Shown piece after piece: positions 1-39,616 of a stretch of 41,572 nucleotides of DNA. The stretch is from a virus. The translations under genes and the position numbers were made by a program. The first letter of the stretch is position 1; each line of letters starts with the position of its first letter. The notes beneath the pieces are model-generated. The model was not told where the DNA came from. It was given only the letters and a program-made list of their open reading frames with translations, and searched no databases. Where the stretch lies: IMG/VR virus record IMGVR_UViG_3300046718_000434, positions 1-41,572 of that record; one strand, 5' to 3'.

Positions 1-909
1 GTCACTGTAAACGCGACCCCGTCTTTGTTGTTCCGTGCTCGGTACTCCGGCGCGACGCTTGTTAAGACGGGGACGGATACATGGGATTTGTTCGGGGATC
101 TCGCTGGCGCTGGTGTCGGAACAACCGGCGCGACTGGTCCTACGGGAGCCACTGGTGCAACGGGAGCGACTGGTTCCGCCGGGTCGGATGGCCTCGATGG
201 TTTGGAGGGCCCTCCCGGCTCGACGGGTCAGCGCGGACAGACTGGTGCTACCGGAGCTACTGGCGCCACAGGGTTCACTGGCCCGTCTGGTCAGGACGGT
301 CTTGATGGTCTGGACGGTCAGAAGGGATCAACGGGCGCGACTGGACCTACCGGCGCGACAGGTGCCACCGGCCCGACCGGGTCGAAGCCAGCGGGGCAGA
401 TCTGGCTGTCCGGAGCAGGAATGTGGGGTTCGAACACATCAGGAGCTGCTGCGGTGACGTTGAACGAGACCACCACGAACCTTCAGGACTACTACACGCT
501 TGGGTTTGTTGATGCCGTAACGAGTTACGCGCAAGGGAATCTGATGCTCCCGTCTGACTACGACGGCGGTACCGTCACCGCGACGTTCGTGTGGACGATC
601 GGGGTCGCTGCGACGGCTTCAACGGGAGCAGTGACATGGGGTGCTCAGTGGAACCAGTACAGCAGCGGCCGCACTCTCGACCAGACGTGGGGCACAGGGC
701 AGGAGGTCACTCAGAACTATCAGTCCGCAGCGACAGGAGCGTTCGAGATGACAACCTCTGCGACCTCAGCGATCACAACCGGTGGTGTGACGGGCGCTGC
801 GTCGAATCTCGCGTTGTTCCGTGTCTACCGTCGTGCTGCCGCCACGGCGGACACCCTCACGGTCTCTGCCGGGCTGATCGGCGTGATGATCGCCTACACG
901 AGGGTCTAA
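1..909 (+). CDS. Collagen-like fibre/decoration protein, 5' partial
   Basis: The reading frame is open from base 1, so the gene begins upstream of the window; the TTG at 25 is only an internal in-frame codon. After a short N-terminal stretch there is a run of Gly-X-Y triplets ([12 protein letters not shown] types) from about base 120 to 385, which is the phage collagen-like stalk pattern. The C-terminal half is Thr/Ala/Gly-rich, without Gly-X-Y repeats, and is probably a globular beta-rich tip. Collagen-like stalks are known in tail fibres and capsid fibres. Because the connector genes lie downstream, this gene sits on the head side of the module, so a head fibre is as likely as a tail fibre. 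One copy of the GTAACNNGTTAC palindrome lies inside it at 516..529. Confidence 0.8.
516..529. repeat. GTAACNNGTTAC palindrome (in gene)
   Basis: CGTAACGAGTTACG inside the collagen-like fibre gene; one of about 17 copies of the window-wide palindrome. Confidence 0.6.
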
Positions 910-28150: not shown

Positions 28151-28516
28151 TTAGGCGGCGGTGGGATGTTCTGTTTCGGCTTCTGTTTCTTCAATCTCAA
28201 CAACAACCCTGGGGTTCTCCGACCAGATCCGGTACAGATGCGTCTCGCAGATCTGCCTGTCATCGTTGTAGGCGTGCCCGTTGAGGCCATCCGAAATCGC
28301 CTTGAGGACGTTGTCTGTGTCGAGCTTGTGGTTGTTGGTGTAGATCGTGAGCGAGAGAACAACAGGACCCTCGATCTTGCTGTGCATGGCAGCCCTCGCT
28401 GCATACCCAATCAGCTCTTCGTACGCTCTCGTTTTGGGTGGGGTGTACCAGTTCCCCGCAGGTCCTCTGCGCGGGCGTTCCTTGGCGACTGGTTCGCCTG
28501 GGATCGTGAACCTCAC
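28151..28516 (-). CDS. rusA: RusA-like Holliday junction resolvase
   Basis: The 121-aa product fits RusA in length and motifs: FTIPGEPVAKERPRR at the start, HKLDTDNVLKAISDGLNG (63-80) with catalytic-type Asp66 and Asp68, and NDDRQI (84-89) with the third acidic site. RusA resolves Holliday junctions as a dimer, serving phage recombination or debranching DNA before packaging. The GTG overlaps the methyltransferase stop (GTGA). Confidence 0.9.
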   Translation of the reverse strand: MRFTIPGEPVAKERPRRGPAGNWYTPPKTRAYEELIGYAARAAMHSKIEGPVVLSLTIYTNNHKLDTDNVLKAISDGLNGHAYNDDRQICETHLYRIWSENPRVVVEIEETEAETEHPTAA

Positions 28517-29943
28517 AGCGCGTCCATCAGGTTGAGCTGCCCTGTCGACTTGACTCGCTCCTGCCGTGCTTCCGATGCTTCCTTCTCGGCGGCGATGCGC
28601 CAGCCGTCCTCACCGTGCTGCTGCCAGTACTGCACCCGCTCTTTCGCGATCTTCATGTAGTCGGGCTCCCGTTCGATCCCGATGAACGTGCGGTGTTCCA
28701 GGAGAGCAGCGACCGCGGTGGTTCCTGAGCCAAGGAAGCAGTCGAGCACAACCCCGTCGGCGGGTGTGACTAGCCGGACCAAGTAGCGCATCAGCTCGAT
28801 CGGCTTCACCGTGGGATGATCGTTTTCACGTGAAACTCCGGCGCCGCGCTCCGTCCTGGTGGTCTTGGCGCAGTAGAAGAATCGTGACGCCCCACCCGTG
28901 TCGTTGTACGGGCTGTTCTCAACACGCTCCCACACGCCATAGATGCCTCCCTGGCCTGTGTGTGACGGCTCCGTCCCTTTCACCTTGCCGCCGGCCGGAC
29001 GGTCACCGGACTGTTGATCCATGATCTTGACCGGGCAGTCGTCGGTGCAGTCCCAAGACTCGAACGGTTCGTCAGGCGTCGTCTCCTGCGTGCTCGGATG
29101 CCCCTTCCCGCCACCGAACGGTTTCAGCCCGTCCGTATACCGGTTCATCTTTCTCCCCGGGCCCGTGAAGGTGCCCACGTACACACAGTCAGGGTGGTGG
29201 GAGAGGATCAGATTGGCGGGCCAGCGCCCAATGTCTGTGTCGAACCCGGTGCCTAGTCTTCCTTCCCCGGTCTTGTACGCCCCGTAGGTGAGCGTACTGT
29301 CCGTCTGCGATGGGGAAGCGGGCGCTCGTTTCGACTCGCCGACCCTGGTCTCATCAATGTTCATGGCTCCGGTGCCGTAACGCGTTACGTTCTGCTCCAC
29401 CGTCCCGTCCAGTGGTTTGCGTGCAATCACGATCGGCTCCCACGCTGGCTTCAGTGCCGTGCCCAACCCACCGGGGAGGTTCAGTGACTTCGGGAACCCG
29501 GAGCCGTACAGCCACATCAGACAGTCGCGTATCTCAAACCCGGCATCCTCCAACCCTGCTGTGAGACGATGGTAGGTGCGTGTCCCTCCGAACGAAAGCA
29601 GGTACCCGCCTGGCTTTAGCGATCGGTACGCCTCCGTCCCCCACGTCTCGCACCACGACTGAAACGAGCGCATCGCAGGACGAGGGTCCTTCACGTAGGA
29701 GCCTGTCCCTGATGGGCGCACCTTCATCCGTCCCATCGGGCCGGGCGATACCTGTAGATCGTCCTTGAACGGCTGGCGCATGTCACCGAACGAGTCCCAG
29801 TCTTTGCCCATGAACTCCAACCCGTACGGTGGGTCGGTCACGACAGCATCAACAGACTCCATTGGGAGCTCGCGCATCTTCTCGATGCAGTCACCCAGCA
29901 GGAGCTTCAACGACGTTGTCCTGTGACGTAGCGCACCCAGCAT
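28513..29943 (-). CDS. Beta-class DNA N-methyltransferase
   Basis: The 476-aa product has the catalytic motif IV TDPPYGLEF at 36-44 and SAM-binding motif I CFLGSGTTAVAALL at 402-415. This order (IV before I) defines the beta class that makes N4-methylcytosine or N6-methyladenine. The middle (about 170-380) is a long variable target-recognition region. No restriction partner is visible, so protection from host restriction or regulation is the likely role. A parS-like 13-mer and one palindrome lie inside the gene. The ATG start overlaps the upstream gene by 37 bases. Confidence 0.9.
   Translation of the reverse strand: MLGALRHRTTSLKLLLGDCIEKMRELPMESVDAVVTDPPYGLEFMGKDWDSFGDMRQPFKDDLQVSPGPMGRMKVRPSGTGSYVKDPRPAMRSFQSWCETWGTEAYRSLKPGGYLLSFGGTRTYHRLTAGLEDAGFEIRDCLMWLYGSGFPKSLNLPGGLGTALKPAWEPIVIARKPLDGTVEQNVTRYGTGAMNIDETRVGESKRAPASPSQTDSTLTYGAYKTGEGRLGTGFDTDIGRWPANLILSHHPDCVYVGTFTGPGRKMNRYTDGLKPFGGGKGHPSTQETTPDEPFESWDCTDDCPVKIMDQQSGDRPAGGKVKGTEPSHTGQGGIYGVWERVENSPYNDTGGASRFFYCAKTTRTERGAGVSRENDHPTVKPIELMRYLVRLVTPADGVVLDCFLGSGTTAVAALLEHRTFIGIEREPDYMKIAKERVQYWQQHGEDGWRIAAEKEASEARQERVKSTGQLNLMDAL
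29376..29389. repeat. GTAACNNGTTAC palindrome (in gene)
   Basis: CGTAACGCGTTACG inside the DNA methyltransferase gene. Confidence 0.55.
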
Positions 29944-34805: not shown

Positions 34806-36131
34806 CTAGCTGTTGTTGTCTGACAAACGCGGCACCGTGTTGCGCACCGCGAGGAACCACGCATTCGAGTCCATCTCCACCTGCCGGTGTTCCGGAGGTC
34901 TGTTCGCACGAATGTTCTCCAGGATCGGATCGTGGAACATCGTCCCTCGCACAAACGTTCCTCTCGGGGTTGGGATCACTTCCGTGGCTGTGTGCCCGGT
35001 CCCGTAGATCATGAGTTTCTGTCGGAGCCGGTACCCGGCGTCCGTGCTCGCGAAGGGGGACAGCCCGCCATTCCCGGTGCCGAACAGCTCCGCGCGGTAG
35101 TACGCACGGTGGTCACGCAGGTCGTCACTGGTCATGTCTGTTTCAACGGCAAAGATGTCCCCCTGGCGGAAAACACGCCTCCCCTCTTTTCGCGCTTTGT
35201 GCACGATCGGGGGTGCCAGCAAGCGGATCGCGTGGGTGATGTAACGCACCCCGCCCTTGTCCGGTAGCTGCGCGAGAAAGTACATGGCTGGGTTCTCCAA
35301 CTGATCGAACCCCGACAGCCACCGGTGGCGTTCCCCGTTCCCGTCCACAGCCCAGAACACGGACTCGCCCAGGCGGTGCATGCGCTCCACGACCAAGTAG
35401 GTCTCCTGAGAGAGATCCTCGATTTGATGCCACGCAGCCATCGGAGCGAAATCGGGTTGGTGCATGATCTCCAGGGCTTGGTGCGGCTGCCAGGACCAGG
35501 ACCTGAACCTGTACAGACGGCCGCGCCACAGGAACTCTTGTCCGGTCCCCGTAACGTTCTTCCCCGAGATCCTGTTCGCGGCCATGAGCGCCTCGCTGGG
35601 TTTCGGCACCACAACACGGTTCGAGACCTGTCTGTCTGTGCTGACGTGGATCGGCTCGATCGTGGATGGGTCCAAGCGGGCCGCGTTCATCGCCGCGTAC
35701 GGGATCACCATTCGCATGTCTACTCTCGGGAAGCTGTTCTGCACCCGGGCTCGAAGTTGCGCCTGCACGTTCTGCAGCAGCCGGTCCTCGAACCCATCCC
35801 CGTTCAGAAGTACGAACGGTTCCAGCTTCCGCGACGCCGGCCACACCACTCGGGCGAGCTCAATGATCGGCTGCACCCCGCGTCCGATGCTGCGAACCGT
35901 CAACTGCCCTTCCGGCCCCGTTCTTACCTCGAACCCCGGGTTCGTCCGATGCCACATCGCTATTGCTCGTTTCTCGTCCCCACCAGCCTGTTCCAGGAGA
36001 TCCGTCCATTCTGTCGTGTACCTGTTCGGCTGGTTCACGAGACGCGAGAAAAACTCGGTGGGCGGGTACACGAAGCTCTTCTTCGATTCGCGCCACCACC
36101 CTTCGAGCATGGTCTCCTGCTCTATCTGCAA
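34806..36131 (-). CDS. Large unknown protein, about 441 aa
   Basis: I place the start at TTG 36131, eight bases after AGGAGG; an in-frame GTG at 36140 overlaps that site. The protein is globular throughout, with aromatic-rich central segments (LYRFRSWSWQPHQALEIMHQ near 210-230; ESVFWAVDGNGERHRWLSG near 255-275) and a GTFVRGTMFHDPIL segment near 400. I recognise no catalytic motif or fold. It is the largest leftward gene without an assignment apart from the methyltransferase. Confidence 0.75.
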   Translation of the reverse strand: MQIEQETMLEGWWRESKKSFVYPPTEFFSRLVNQPNRYTTEWTDLLEQAGGDEKRAIAMWHRTNPGFEVRTGPEGQLTVRSIGRGVQPIIELARVVWPASRKLEPFVLLNGDGFEDRLLQNVQAQLRARVQNSFPRVDMRMVIPYAAMNAARLDPSTIEPIHVSTDRQVSNRVVVPKPSEALMAANRISGKNVTGTGQEFLWRGRLYRFRSWSWQPHQALEIMHQPDFAPMAAWHQIEDLSQETYLVVERMHRLGESVFWAVDGNGERHRWLSGFDQLENPAMYFLAQLPDKGGVRYITHAIRLLAPPIVHKARKEGRRVFRQGDIFAVETDMTSDDLRDHRAYYRAELFGTGNGGLSPFASTDAGYRLRQKLMIYGTGHTATEVIPTPRGTFVRGTMFHDPILENIRANRPPEHRQVEMDSNAWFLAVRNTVPRLSDNNS

Positions 36132-36154
36132 GACCCACACCTCCTATTCTCTAG

Positions 36155-36174: not shown

Positions 36175-36315
36175 CTACGAGACGGTCGGGCTGGCACGAA
36201 CGTCCAGCTCGTAGAACGATCTCGCGCAAAGCGTCGAACAGAACGGGTCCCCGTGCGTGACCGCAACCCCCGGTAGGGGCTTCTGACACACGAAGCACTT
36301 CCCGTCCTTTCTCAT
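36175..36315 (-). CDS. Zinc-finger microprotein, 46 aa
   Basis: The ATG at 36315 follows AAGGA. The product has CFVCQKPLPGV (7-17) and FCSTLCARSFYELD (about 25-38), the MYM/TRASH-like pattern of two CxxC knuckles. It lies 13 bases after the upstream gene. Function is unknown. Confidence 0.65.
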   Translation of the reverse strand: MRKDGKCFVCQKPLPGVAVTHGDPFCSTLCARSFYELDVRASPTVS

Positions 36316-36328
36316 CGAAGGATCCTTC

Positions 36329-36535
36329 TTAGGCACCCTCGACGAGGACGGTGGCCCCCGCTCCACTCTTGTTGTCTCTACCGATGTCACGAACTACCCC
36401 CTTTGTTTCAGAGCCCCCGCACATCCGATCCAGGTCACGCATAAGCCCGCGGTTAGCCGAATCGGTGCGCTTCACTACCCCCCTTCGGCGGGCGTCAATC
36501 TCCCGCCTCAGAAACTCCCTCGTTGATTTGTTCAT
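36329..36535 (-). CDS. Small basic unknown protein
   Basis: The ATG at 36535 follows GAGG at six bases; a GTG at 36547 is an alternative. The 68-aa product is Arg-rich (TREFLRREIDARRRGVVKR) and probably helical at the N-terminus. It overlaps the upstream gene by 41 bases. A nucleic-acid-binding role is possible but not shown. Confidence 0.55.
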   Translation of the reverse strand: MNKSTREFLRREIDARRRGVVKRTDSANRGLMRDLDRMCGGSETKGVVRDIGRDNKSGAGATVLVEGA

Positions 36536-36896
36536 CGAGATCCTCACTTGTGTGCCAACCAGTCCCGACCACGCTCACCGACTCTTCTCCGGTCGTTGAT
36601 CGGGCCCTCTCGTTCCCGGTCGGGAGCCGCGACAGCACCTCGAACGACGGGACACCACCCACCACGCTCTCCAACCAGCACGACAGGTGATACCCACATA
36701 CTCGCATCACACGGTCACCAATGTCAAGGTCGAACCCGCCGAAAATGCGTTCGCTACAGGCTGTCAGAACCCCGCGATCCGTTGGCCGAATCGGGGTGTT
36801 GCACTCGACGCACCGCTCCCCCATCGGTGTCTCCACGCGGTTCTGTCGTTCTAGGCTGTCCGACCACGGATTCGACCCGAACCATCTGAGAATCAC
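36495..36896 (-). CDS. Zinc-binding unknown protein
   Basis: The GTG at 36896 overlaps the SLOG gene stop (GTGA). The 133-aa product has RCVECNTPI (28-36), a later Cys in LTACSER and CGYHLSCWLE (about 67-76), a spacing that could form a treble-clef or RING-like zinc site. The acidic Ser/Glu-rich tail is likely disordered. Function is unknown. Confidence 0.62.
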   Translation of the reverse strand: MILRWFGSNPWSDSLERQNRVETPMGERCVECNTPIRPTDRGVLTACSERIFGGFDLDIGDRVMRVCGYHLSCWLESVVGGVPSFEVLSRLPTGNERARSTTGEESVSVVGTGWHTSEDLDEQINEGVSEAGD

Positions 36897-37423
36897 GACT
36901 CACCTTCCAGCTTCGCTTCCGCTGAGAACACCAAGGTGAGGAACCACTCCACGAACGATTCGATCGACTCGTCCCCGTTTCCAGCGACGTTCACCACCAT
37001 CACCTGACGATCGACGAGCCACTGGGCCACCGTTTTTGCGTACGAGTACTGATACCCGAGCCCTTTCCCCCCCACAGACCAACTGTCGTTGTCGTTCCGC
37101 GCGAGAGGAACATCGAAATGAGGCTTCTTGTACTGCTCGATGAACCTCAGGGTCGCGCGCTCACCGGCGGATCGCCAGTTGTGCGCCAACCTGATCGTTG
37201 CGTCCGCCATCTGCACGTTCTTCCTGGTGCGCAGCGGGTATCCGGTGCTCTCGGTTTCGACCGCGTTGAACTCCCGCACCGTCTCGTAGTCGAGCGGGCC
37301 GTGCAATGTACGGAACCCTTTCGGCATATAGCCGAACGTGTCGATCCCGCACGCTTTTGCTGCTCGCAGGCCGGCGATGTCCGCCCCATCCTGCAAACCT
37401 GAAATCACCATTTTAAGCGGCAA
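36893..37423 (-). CDS. SLOG/YpsA-like (putative molybdenum-carrier type) protein
   Basis: The 176-aa product has the Rossmann-like start MVISGLQDGADIAGLRAAKACG (5-26), PKGFRT (34-39) and RTRKNVQMADATIRL (65-79). These match the nucleotide-binding core of the YpsA/putative Mo-carrier branch of the SLOG superfamily. SLOG domains bind nucleotides or NAD-derived ligands. The TTG at 37423 has GGGAGG upstream; ATG 37411 is an alternative. It follows the NADAR gene directly, suggesting a joint NAD/ADP-ribose function (inference). Confidence 0.78.
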   Translation of the reverse strand: MPLKMVISGLQDGADIAGLRAAKACGIDTFGYMPKGFRTLHGPLDYETVREFNAVETESTGYPLRTRKNVQMADATIRLAHNWRSAGERATLRFIEQYKKPHFDVPLARNDNDSWSVGGKGLGYQYSYAKTVAQWLVDRQVMVVNVAGNGDESIESFVEWFLTLVFSAEAKLEGES

Positions 37424-37841
37424 ATCGCCTCCCTTCGTCCCTGATTTTCATCAGCAAACGCCCGAGATGGTTTTCCCCAACTCCCTTACAGACACCCCAG
37501 AACGTGTCGCCCCACCAGTTCCCCTCGACCAGCTCCACCGGAGCAGTCGAAGTGAGTTTGTCTCGCAGCCGCTCGTCAGCGAACTTCATTCGAAGGATCT
37601 CCTCCATCACTACCAGCTTCTCCGACTCCCACGTTGGGCGCAAAGGAGCACCCCTGCCGAGCTTCTTAGCCGCGTTAGGGGATGAAGCGAGAGCGATCCG
37701 GGCTTTCCAAGTCGGATCGTCAGTTTTGGCGGCTGCATATGCGGCTTCCGCTGTCGCGAACCTAATCCCTTCGCGTTCGATCACGGACTCGTAGAAGTTG
37801 GAGAGAAACCGGTATTCCCCTTCGAAACTCTCGATTTTCAC
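37413..37841 (-). CDS. NADAR (YbiA-like) ADP-ribose glycosidase
   Basis: The 142-aa product matches NADAR over its full length: YRFLSNFYES (10-19), the TAEAAYAAAK helix (30-39; Glu32 in the usual catalytic place), AKKLGRGAPLR (58-68), LRMKF (83-87) and VEGNWWGDTFWGVC (105-118). Some NADAR enzymes remove ADP-ribose from guanine and counter DarT-type toxins, and phage NADARs have been reported as anti-DarTG factors. A counter-defence role is therefore a reasonable inference. The start follows the palindrome at 37851 by nine bases. Confidence 0.86.
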   Translation of the reverse strand: MKIESFEGEYRFLSNFYESVIEREGIRFATAEAAYAAAKTDDPTWKARIALASSPNAAKKLGRGAPLRPTWESEKLVVMEEILRMKFADERLRDKLTSTAPVELVEGNWWGDTFWGVCKGVGENHLGRLLMKIRDEGRRFAA

Positions 37842-38120: not shown

Positions 38121-38138
38121 CGATCATCACCCCTTTCA

Positions 38139-38209
38139 TGGGCCGGGCAGGAGTCGAACCTGCACCGTCGGGCTTAAAAGGCCCACGCTCACCACTGAGC
38201 CACCGACCC
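38139..38209 (-). tRNA. tRNA-Lys (anticodon UUU)
   Basis: The 71-nt sequence folds into a full cloverleaf: acceptor GGGTCGG/CCGGCCC (one G-U), D stem GCTC/GAGC, anticodon stem TGGGC/GCCCG around loop CTTTTAA, and T arm GCAGG-TTCGACT-CCTGC. Positions 34-36 are TTT, so it reads AAA and AAG. CCA is not encoded. It is the only tRNA seen in the window. Confidence 0.93.
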
Positions 38210-38218
38210 AACCTCATG

Positions 38219-38845: not shown

Positions 38846-39616
38846 TCACGCCTTCGCCTTCGCCTTCGGCCTTCGCGCCTTCACCGTCTTCTTCAGCTCC
38901 TCCACCAGGTTCGGAGGGTCGGTCGTGGGCCCATCCGATCTGGCTGCGATCAGATCGTTCTTACGCCGGCGGGACTCCGACTCCAGGTCCTCCGGGTCCA
39001 GATGTCCCATTAGGGCCAGGACCCGAGGCTTGAACTCCGCCAGCGCCGCCTTCGACGGTACCGGTGCCGTGAAATCAGGCTCGACGAGGTCCTCGTGCAG
39101 GTTCAAGGTCGCGAGCATCAGCACGCCGCCGTGAGGGTAGACCGCGATCGGATGCTCTTTCCCCCAGATGGTCGTTGACCCGATCCCGGCCGCTCTCATC
39201 GTGGTGAGCACCTGATACAGCACCCCGTACCTTCCAGGAACCACCTTGTCGGGAACAAGGTAATACTGGCTCGCGAGCATCGTCAGGTCGAGCTCCTCGT
39301 AGAGAACGAACTTCGTCACGTCGATGAACGGCGTCTTCTCCACGTCGAGCGCGTCGAGCTCAGGTCGCGTGAAGACGATGAACTCGTCTTTCGCGTACTC
39401 GTACCCGGAGACGAGGTCCTCCTGCTCGACGGTTTTCTCGCACTTCGAGCACGTTTTCGGTTCCTTGATCGTGCCTCCGCACCCTTCGTGCATGGTGCGG
39501 AACTTCTTGTCCTTCGAAGACACCGCTCCTGCGAGGCCCACTTGCACAACGTCCCGTTCCTCGGGGTTGAGTGCGGGGGAGCCGAATCGGAGCCCAGCTT
39601 TTCTGGACACGTGCAT
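38846..39616 (-). CDS. Ku-like DNA end-binding protein
   Basis: The 256-aa product matches bacterial Ku over residues about 23-180: KKFRTMHEGCGGTI (37-50), TCSKCEKTV (55-63), EDLVSGYEYAKDEFIVFTRPELDAL (from 66), then the core ASQYYLVPDK and GVLYQVLTTM and the VLMLATLNLHEDL region. Ku binds DNA ends and recruits ligase D for end joining. Phage Ku is known in mycobacteriophages Omega and Corndog, where it works with host LigD to close short cohesive ends. The extra Cys trio (46, 56, 59) may bind zinc. No ligase is visible here. A palindrome and AGAGAGGAG lie upstream. Confidence 0.88.
   Translation of the reverse strand: MHVSRKAGLRFGSPALNPEERDVVQVGLAGAVSSKDKKFRTMHEGCGGTIKEPKTCSKCEKTVEQEDLVSGYEYAKDEFIVFTRPELDALDVEKTPFIDVTKFVLYEELDLTMLASQYYLVPDKVVPGRYGVLYQVLTTMRAAGIGSTTIWGKEHPIAVYPHGGVLMLATLNLHEDLVEPDFTAPVPSKAALAEFKPRVLALMGHLDPEDLESESRRRKNDLIAARSDGPTTDPPNLVEELKKTVKARRPKAKAKA

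Follow-up and report, generated by a model that had tools for sequence, protein, structure and literature searches.

The DNA studied here, referred to as the window, is the 41,572-base IMG/VR virus record IMGVR_UViG_3300046718_000434, positions 1-41,572. It carries tailed-phage features (tape measure, tail fibres, head-tail connector), and its minus strand is rich in dense, short, overlapping genes. Within that strand, a NADAR gene runs directly into a gene for a SLOG protein. The features discussed below are as follows:

37413..37841, minus strand: NADAR protein, 142 aa, YbiA-type (PF08719, phrog_1017, alignment to YbiA and 8bau, model)
36893..37423, minus strand: circularly permuted YpsA-type SLOG protein (cpYpsA), 176 aa (PF12694, model, 3imk fold match)
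37413..37423, minus strand: overlap of the NADAR end and the SLOG start, 11 nt (sequence)
36495..36896, minus strand: zinc-ribbon-like protein (CxxC...CxxHxxC), 133 aa, next gene after SLOG (ORF, sequence)
36175-36390, minus strand: second small Cys-rich, zinc-ribbon-like protein, downstream of SLOG, without family match
34806-36140, minus strand: 444-aa protein, downstream of the pair (phrog_29643, 1.6e-27)
38138..38210, minus strand: tRNA-Lys (UUU) (ARAGORN; Rfam tRNA, 64.4 bits)
38846-39616, minus strand: phage-encoded Ku (PF02735, 3e-24)
28513-29943, minus strand: N6/N4 DNA methylase in the minus-strand gene run (PF01555, 4.4e-35)
25-909, plus strand: collagen-repeat protein at the contig start

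The initial annotation described a full-length NADAR gene followed by a YpsA-like SLOG gene with overlapping ends; its coordinates are exact, and Pfam and fold matches confirm both domains. Both ORFs are intact, in the order NADAR then SLOG, and each has its own ribosome-binding site. The NADAR ORF starts with GTG, preceded by GGAGG 5 nt upstream, while the SLOG ORF starts with TTG, with a Shine-Dalgarno-like GGGAGG just upstream, inside the 3' end of the NADAR gene. An alternative SLOG start (ATG) is found four codons into the ORF, 1-2 nt past the NADAR stop. Because of the 11-nt overlap and the Shine-Dalgarno-like site, the two genes are predicted to be translationally coupled. A misassembly is an unlikely cause of the overlap, since another contig, IMGVR_UViG_3300046678_000785, matches the window at 100% identity over 10.7 kb, pair included; this contig is the same virus and gives no independent support.

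The GTG start of the 133-aa gene in turn overlaps the SLOG stop (GTGA), and its product has no Pfam, PHROG or PADLOC match. Upstream of the pair and in the same gene run, tRNA-Lys(UUU) is the sole tRNA gene of the contig. It fills the gap between two genes upstream of NADAR, and its anticodon loop is ordinary. tRNA-Lys is a classic target of host anticodon nucleases. At another cpYpsA locus (L073), a lone tRNA-Lys(UUU) lies about 1.2 kb from cpYpsA. The Ku protein, also in the gene run of the pair, is 33% identical to mycobacteriophage Ku proteins. The 444-aa protein resembles hypothetical proteins of Gordonia and Microbacterium phages, which hints at an actinobacterial host and is at odds with the planctomycete affinity of the cpYpsA described below. 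Positions 1-25000 of the window have no near DNA match in phage records.

The NADAR protein matches the Pfam family (PF08719) at E=3.6e-21 and 76.5 bits (cut-off 35.1), and phrog_1017 at 1.1e-41. Its AlphaFold model, built from a viral alignment, has a mean pLDDT of 93.8, and its best Foldseek matches are YbiA (2b3w) and an ADP-ribose-bound NADAR (8bau). Alignment with YbiA, 8bau and viral homologues shows that catalytic E32, K39 and E106 are kept, as are D112 and W115. The three catalytic residues align with E43, K50 and E125 of the P. nicotianae NADAR, which contact or process the distal ribose in the ADP-ribose complex (PMC11543638). Since the third catalytic position, on the last strand, is a Glu (E106), the protein is classed by sequence as YbiA-type, and as neither DarT1-antitoxin type (Asp) nor T4 gp30.3 type (His). 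The YbiA/RibX family, represented by E. coli YbiA, is indeed its best match in both sequence and fold, with a similar length and the same Glu-Lys-Glu residues. However, the aligned proteins are 40% identical, the score against TIGR02464 (69.9 bits) is just under the equivalog cut-off of 73.7, and the phage context is without riboflavin genes. The DarT1-linked NADAR antitoxins (BC4488 family; DarTG1) have in common with the window protein the NADAR fold and the first two catalytic residues (Glu, Lys), but they have Asp at the third position, a basic N-terminal extension for ssDNA, and a DarT partner. The window NADAR begins at the core and consists of the 142-aa core fold only, without an N-terminal DNA-binding extension. 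DarT (PF14487) has no match anywhere in the 41,572-nt contig, which makes the NADAR an orphan, and a DarT-NADAR toxin-antitoxin reading was rejected for this reason. Membership in PDC-M42C (PADLOC match of 24.6 bits) and in NCBIfam DS32_2 (47.9 versus a cut-off of 240) was likewise rejected. Q36, near-invariant in viral relatives, is an Ala in the window protein. In the searches run, its best matches are phage proteins, with up to 57% identity. Taken alone the window NADAR is ordinary, since similar NADARs are common among phages (438 GenBank records).

The SLOG protein matches cpYpsA (PF12694) at E=1.5e-22 and 80.3 bits (cut-off 26.2). Its AlphaFold model, also built from a viral alignment, has a mean pLDDT of 96.2, and its top Foldseek match is the cpYpsA structure 3imk (E=1.5e-11); capsid chains of hepatitis E also matched, at about E=0.01, and these matches were taken as chance. 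The 3imk protein, a "putative molybdenum carrier" of the same family, has the same fold and, in part, the same conserved motifs, and its entry gives no established function. Eighteen residues are listed as invariant in 26 viral cpYpsA proteins: S8, G9, Q11, G13, D15, L19, G31, G42, Y62, R65, T66, N69, T76, G87, T91, N145, A147 and G148. When the 26 relatives are mapped on the model, these residues lie mostly in loops at strand ends or at helix starts, and they would form a nucleotide pocket at the usual site of the SLOG fold. In the GGQxGxD and TGG loops, the window protein keeps S8, G9, Q11, G13, D15 and G31, but it has Leu and Phe at two usually-glycine positions (G10L, G30F), and because of these two changes its ligand may differ. 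No ligand of a cpYpsA protein, or of a close relative of the window SLOG, was found in the literature searched. The initial annotation also mentioned Thoeris-type immunity. The SLOG domain of ThsA belongs to the same superfamily but is not circularly permuted, no TIR partner was identified for the window, and ThsA gave no sequence or Foldseek match to the window SLOG. In a tree, the window cpYpsA groups on a long branch with four planctomycete sequences, with moderate support (92/86). The two genes of the pair probably have separate histories, since this cpYpsA groups with planctomycetes while the best matches of the NADAR are phage proteins.

The pairing recurs loosely in other genomes. A 527-kb phage (L272) has the order cpYpsA, an unassigned gene and a gp30.3-type NADAR, with overlapping ORFs. 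In a 224-kb phage (L284, 3776-6526), a NADAR carrying the motif EASPFDKIWGIG, an unknown gene, cpYpsA and an RNA ligase (PF09414, 6e-12) form a closely spaced run. In a 340-kb phage (L281), a YbiA-type NADAR and cpYpsA are 3-4 genes apart. Two planctomycete loci carry a NADAR of a divergent planctomycete subtype. In Zavarzinella formosa (L098) it is adjacent to cpYpsA, and in a Planctomycetota MAG contig (L103, 1058-3935) one strand carries NADAR, a dual-specificity-phosphatase-like gene (HCSAGIDRTG), an unassigned gene and cpYpsA, possibly a chromosomal ADP-ribose-processing operon. Proximity is thus seen with several NADAR subtypes, among them the YbiA, gp30.3 and divergent planctomycete types. 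The two domains also seem to meet in single polypeptides: in L053, L063, L065 and L067, giant phage ORFs with lengths near 2,740-2,775 aa, cpYpsA scores about 100 bits and is followed about 385 aa later by a NADAR-like stretch which retains the E, K and His residues of NADARs and is below the Pfam cut-off on its own. L095 has a similar but weaker arrangement, and the weak NADAR matches in L072 were discarded, as they flank and overlap the cpYpsA domain. More generally, cpYpsA forms part of very large phage ORFs, about 1,700-3,200 aa long (L051 393-10013, L063 1011-9281, L072 60-8681, L084, L091 and others), and the one in L051 weakly matches the large polyvalent protein LPD38.

In four of the 19 viral records that carry both genes, gene midpoints lie within 2 kb, versus 0.63 expected (P=0.002, or P=0.014 without the window), in a test whose threshold was picked after viewing the data and whose null is uniform, while phage accessory genes cluster anyway. 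Around bacterial cpYpsA, a NADAR lies within 5 kb at 2 of 80 loci, against about 0.1 expected under an assumed NADAR density. Because thresholds were set post hoc and accessory genes cluster, this recurrent proximity is modest evidence for a functional link between NADAR and cpYpsA, and not for a conserved operon. The co-occurrence survey called for in the initial annotation therefore gives a divided answer, with proximity or fusion in a few genomes and no linkage in most. Conservation of a NADAR-SLOG unit is not supported by it: outside this virus the genes are hardly ever direct neighbours, and most genomes that carry both have them unlinked. A NADAR above the Pfam cut-off is found in a minority of the roughly 100 viral cpYpsA records, usually far away, and the genes touch only in this virus. 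Conversely, cpYpsA is present in 3 of 24 NADAR-bearing virus records, namely the window virus, its identical twin, and one in which the genes are 18 kb apart. The 95 Gemmataceae genomes include 37 with cpYpsA and 50 with NADAR, and Z. formosa is the one adjacent case.

How should the pair be read? Passages of Iyer et al. (2022; PMC9503650) propose that Macro, NADAR, SLOG and Nudix genes serve phages mainly against low-molecular-weight ADP-ribose derivatives of the host, their combination allowing more than a single bond or molecule to be attacked, and predict this countering role for phage NADAR and YpsA-like SLOG genes. The most likely interpretation here agrees with that proposal: at about even odds (roughly 0.5), the pair is a co-translated accessory phage cassette that clears host-made ADP-ribose-type damage or signals, as a form of counter-defence. 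The NADAR would be an orphan YbiA-type N-glycosidase/ADP-ribosyl hydrolase which splits a base, or a group resembling one, from the ribose of ADP-ribose, either on modified nucleic acid or in small derivatives of ADP-ribose. The SLOG protein would bind, and perhaps also cleave, an ADP-ribose-like nucleotide, so that both proteins together lower a NAD-derived toxin or messenger during infection. We infer the enzyme activity, ligand, expression time, joint action and counter-defence role of the pair. The poor conservation of adjacency, the loss of Q36 in the NADAR and the two changed glycine positions in the SLOG protein count against this reading. The interpretation given in the initial annotation is partly supported, with both domain assignments, the overlap, an intact NADAR catalytic site, the orphan status and a published prediction in agreement (PMC9503650, in the passages cited); its further suggestion, that the SLOG protein sequesters a NAD-derived signal, describes what the cpYpsA could do. 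Compared with the genes in those passages, the pair has in common both domain superfamilies, the YpsA-like SLOG clade, the arrangement as neighbours or fusions, and the phage setting. However, the published domains are mostly in larger phages, whereas here they are stand-alone overlapping genes on a 41.6-kb contig; the SLOG is the circularly permuted cpYpsA (PF12694), and the exact pair is not named in those passages.

The same evidence must be weighed against other explanations. Two accessory genes that are useful independently of each other, in separate roles, could simply have come to lie side by side in a dense region. This chance neighbourhood stays a serious rival because the minus strand is full of short overlaps, amid which 11 nt is unremarkable. 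It is also consistent with the lack of linkage in most genomes carrying both genes, and with the adjacency test, in which the window alone of the 19 viral records has the genes within 600 nt (P about 0.17). NADAR is absent from the families that recur beside viral cpYpsA; judged by their sequences, these are mostly DnaJ-like and thymidylate-synthase-like genes from one related lineage, and not NAD genes. Against chance stand three other phages and two planctomycetes in which at most a few genes separate NADAR from cpYpsA, with differing NADAR subtypes and orders, and the giant phage proteins that hold both domains; we consider a chance neighbourhood rather unlikely. Those same observations could instead be taken further than the cassette reading does. 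The pair would then be a two-step unit with a single substrate, reassembled by convergence: NADAR would free a derivative of ADP-ribose from a base, and cpYpsA would capture or degrade the freed molecule. Phages and planctomycetes would have built it several times from different NADAR subtypes, in either order, and by fusion in giant phage proteins. This scheme is improbable. Phage NADARs reportedly neutralise DarTG1, and the initial annotation saw the window gene in that light. Here the NADAR would mimic an antitoxin and strip guanines in phage DNA of the ADP-ribose added by a host DarT1-like toxin, with the SLOG protein as an accessory. Its catalytic residues are intact, and its orphan status fits this reading and the general cassette equally. 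In vitro, hydrolysis of guanine-ADPr is documented for NADARs from a number of subfamilies (PMC11125620; PMC11833690), YbiA and the phage T4 NADAR included, but the latter two failed to protect E. coli from DarT1 toxicity (PMC11125620). With the YbiA-type Glu in place of the Asp of DarT1-linked NADARs, and a core lacking their basic extension, DarTG blocking is a weaker reading than the general cassette, and is improbable.

The neighbourhood suggests two further roles. In one, the pair would form an RNA-repair or tRNA-maintenance module alongside the tRNA-Lys(UUU) just upstream, and would process marks or by-products of ADP-ribose that come with RNA damage. The RNA ligase directly after cpYpsA in the 224-kb phage points the same way, as does Maribacter phage Molly, where an RNA-repair-type HAD gene is found four genes away from cpYpsA. 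But each of these associations is a single case, viral cpYpsA has tRNAs nearby only sporadically, and no RNA ligase, kinase or KptA was seen among the window proteins scanned; such a module is very unlikely. In the other, the NADAR would work like YbiA, as an N-glycosidase on intermediates of riboflavin, serving metabolic damage control with no defence role. That its nearest solved relative is E. coli YbiA, and that it falls so little short of the TIGR02464 cut-off, speak for this. Against it, the protein is nonetheless below that equivalog cut-off, no riboflavin gene was seen among the window proteins scanned, and YbiA-type NADARs also hydrolyse guanine-ADPr (PMC11125620); we give it hardly any weight.

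Published work already covers both families and, in general terms, the combination of SLOG with NADAR in phages. The window adds a compact pair of overlapping genes in which the SLOG is of the cpYpsA type, and the survey adds evidence for the proximity of cpYpsA to several NADAR subtypes and for the rarity of strict adjacency. That the pair acts against DarTG or Thoeris in particular is a hypothesis. NADAR and SLOG genes are widespread in phages. At 142 and 176 aa, and with confident models for both proteins, the coupled, compact pair described here offers a tractable case on which the published idea that phages split the labour of destroying ADP-ribose signals can be put to the test.
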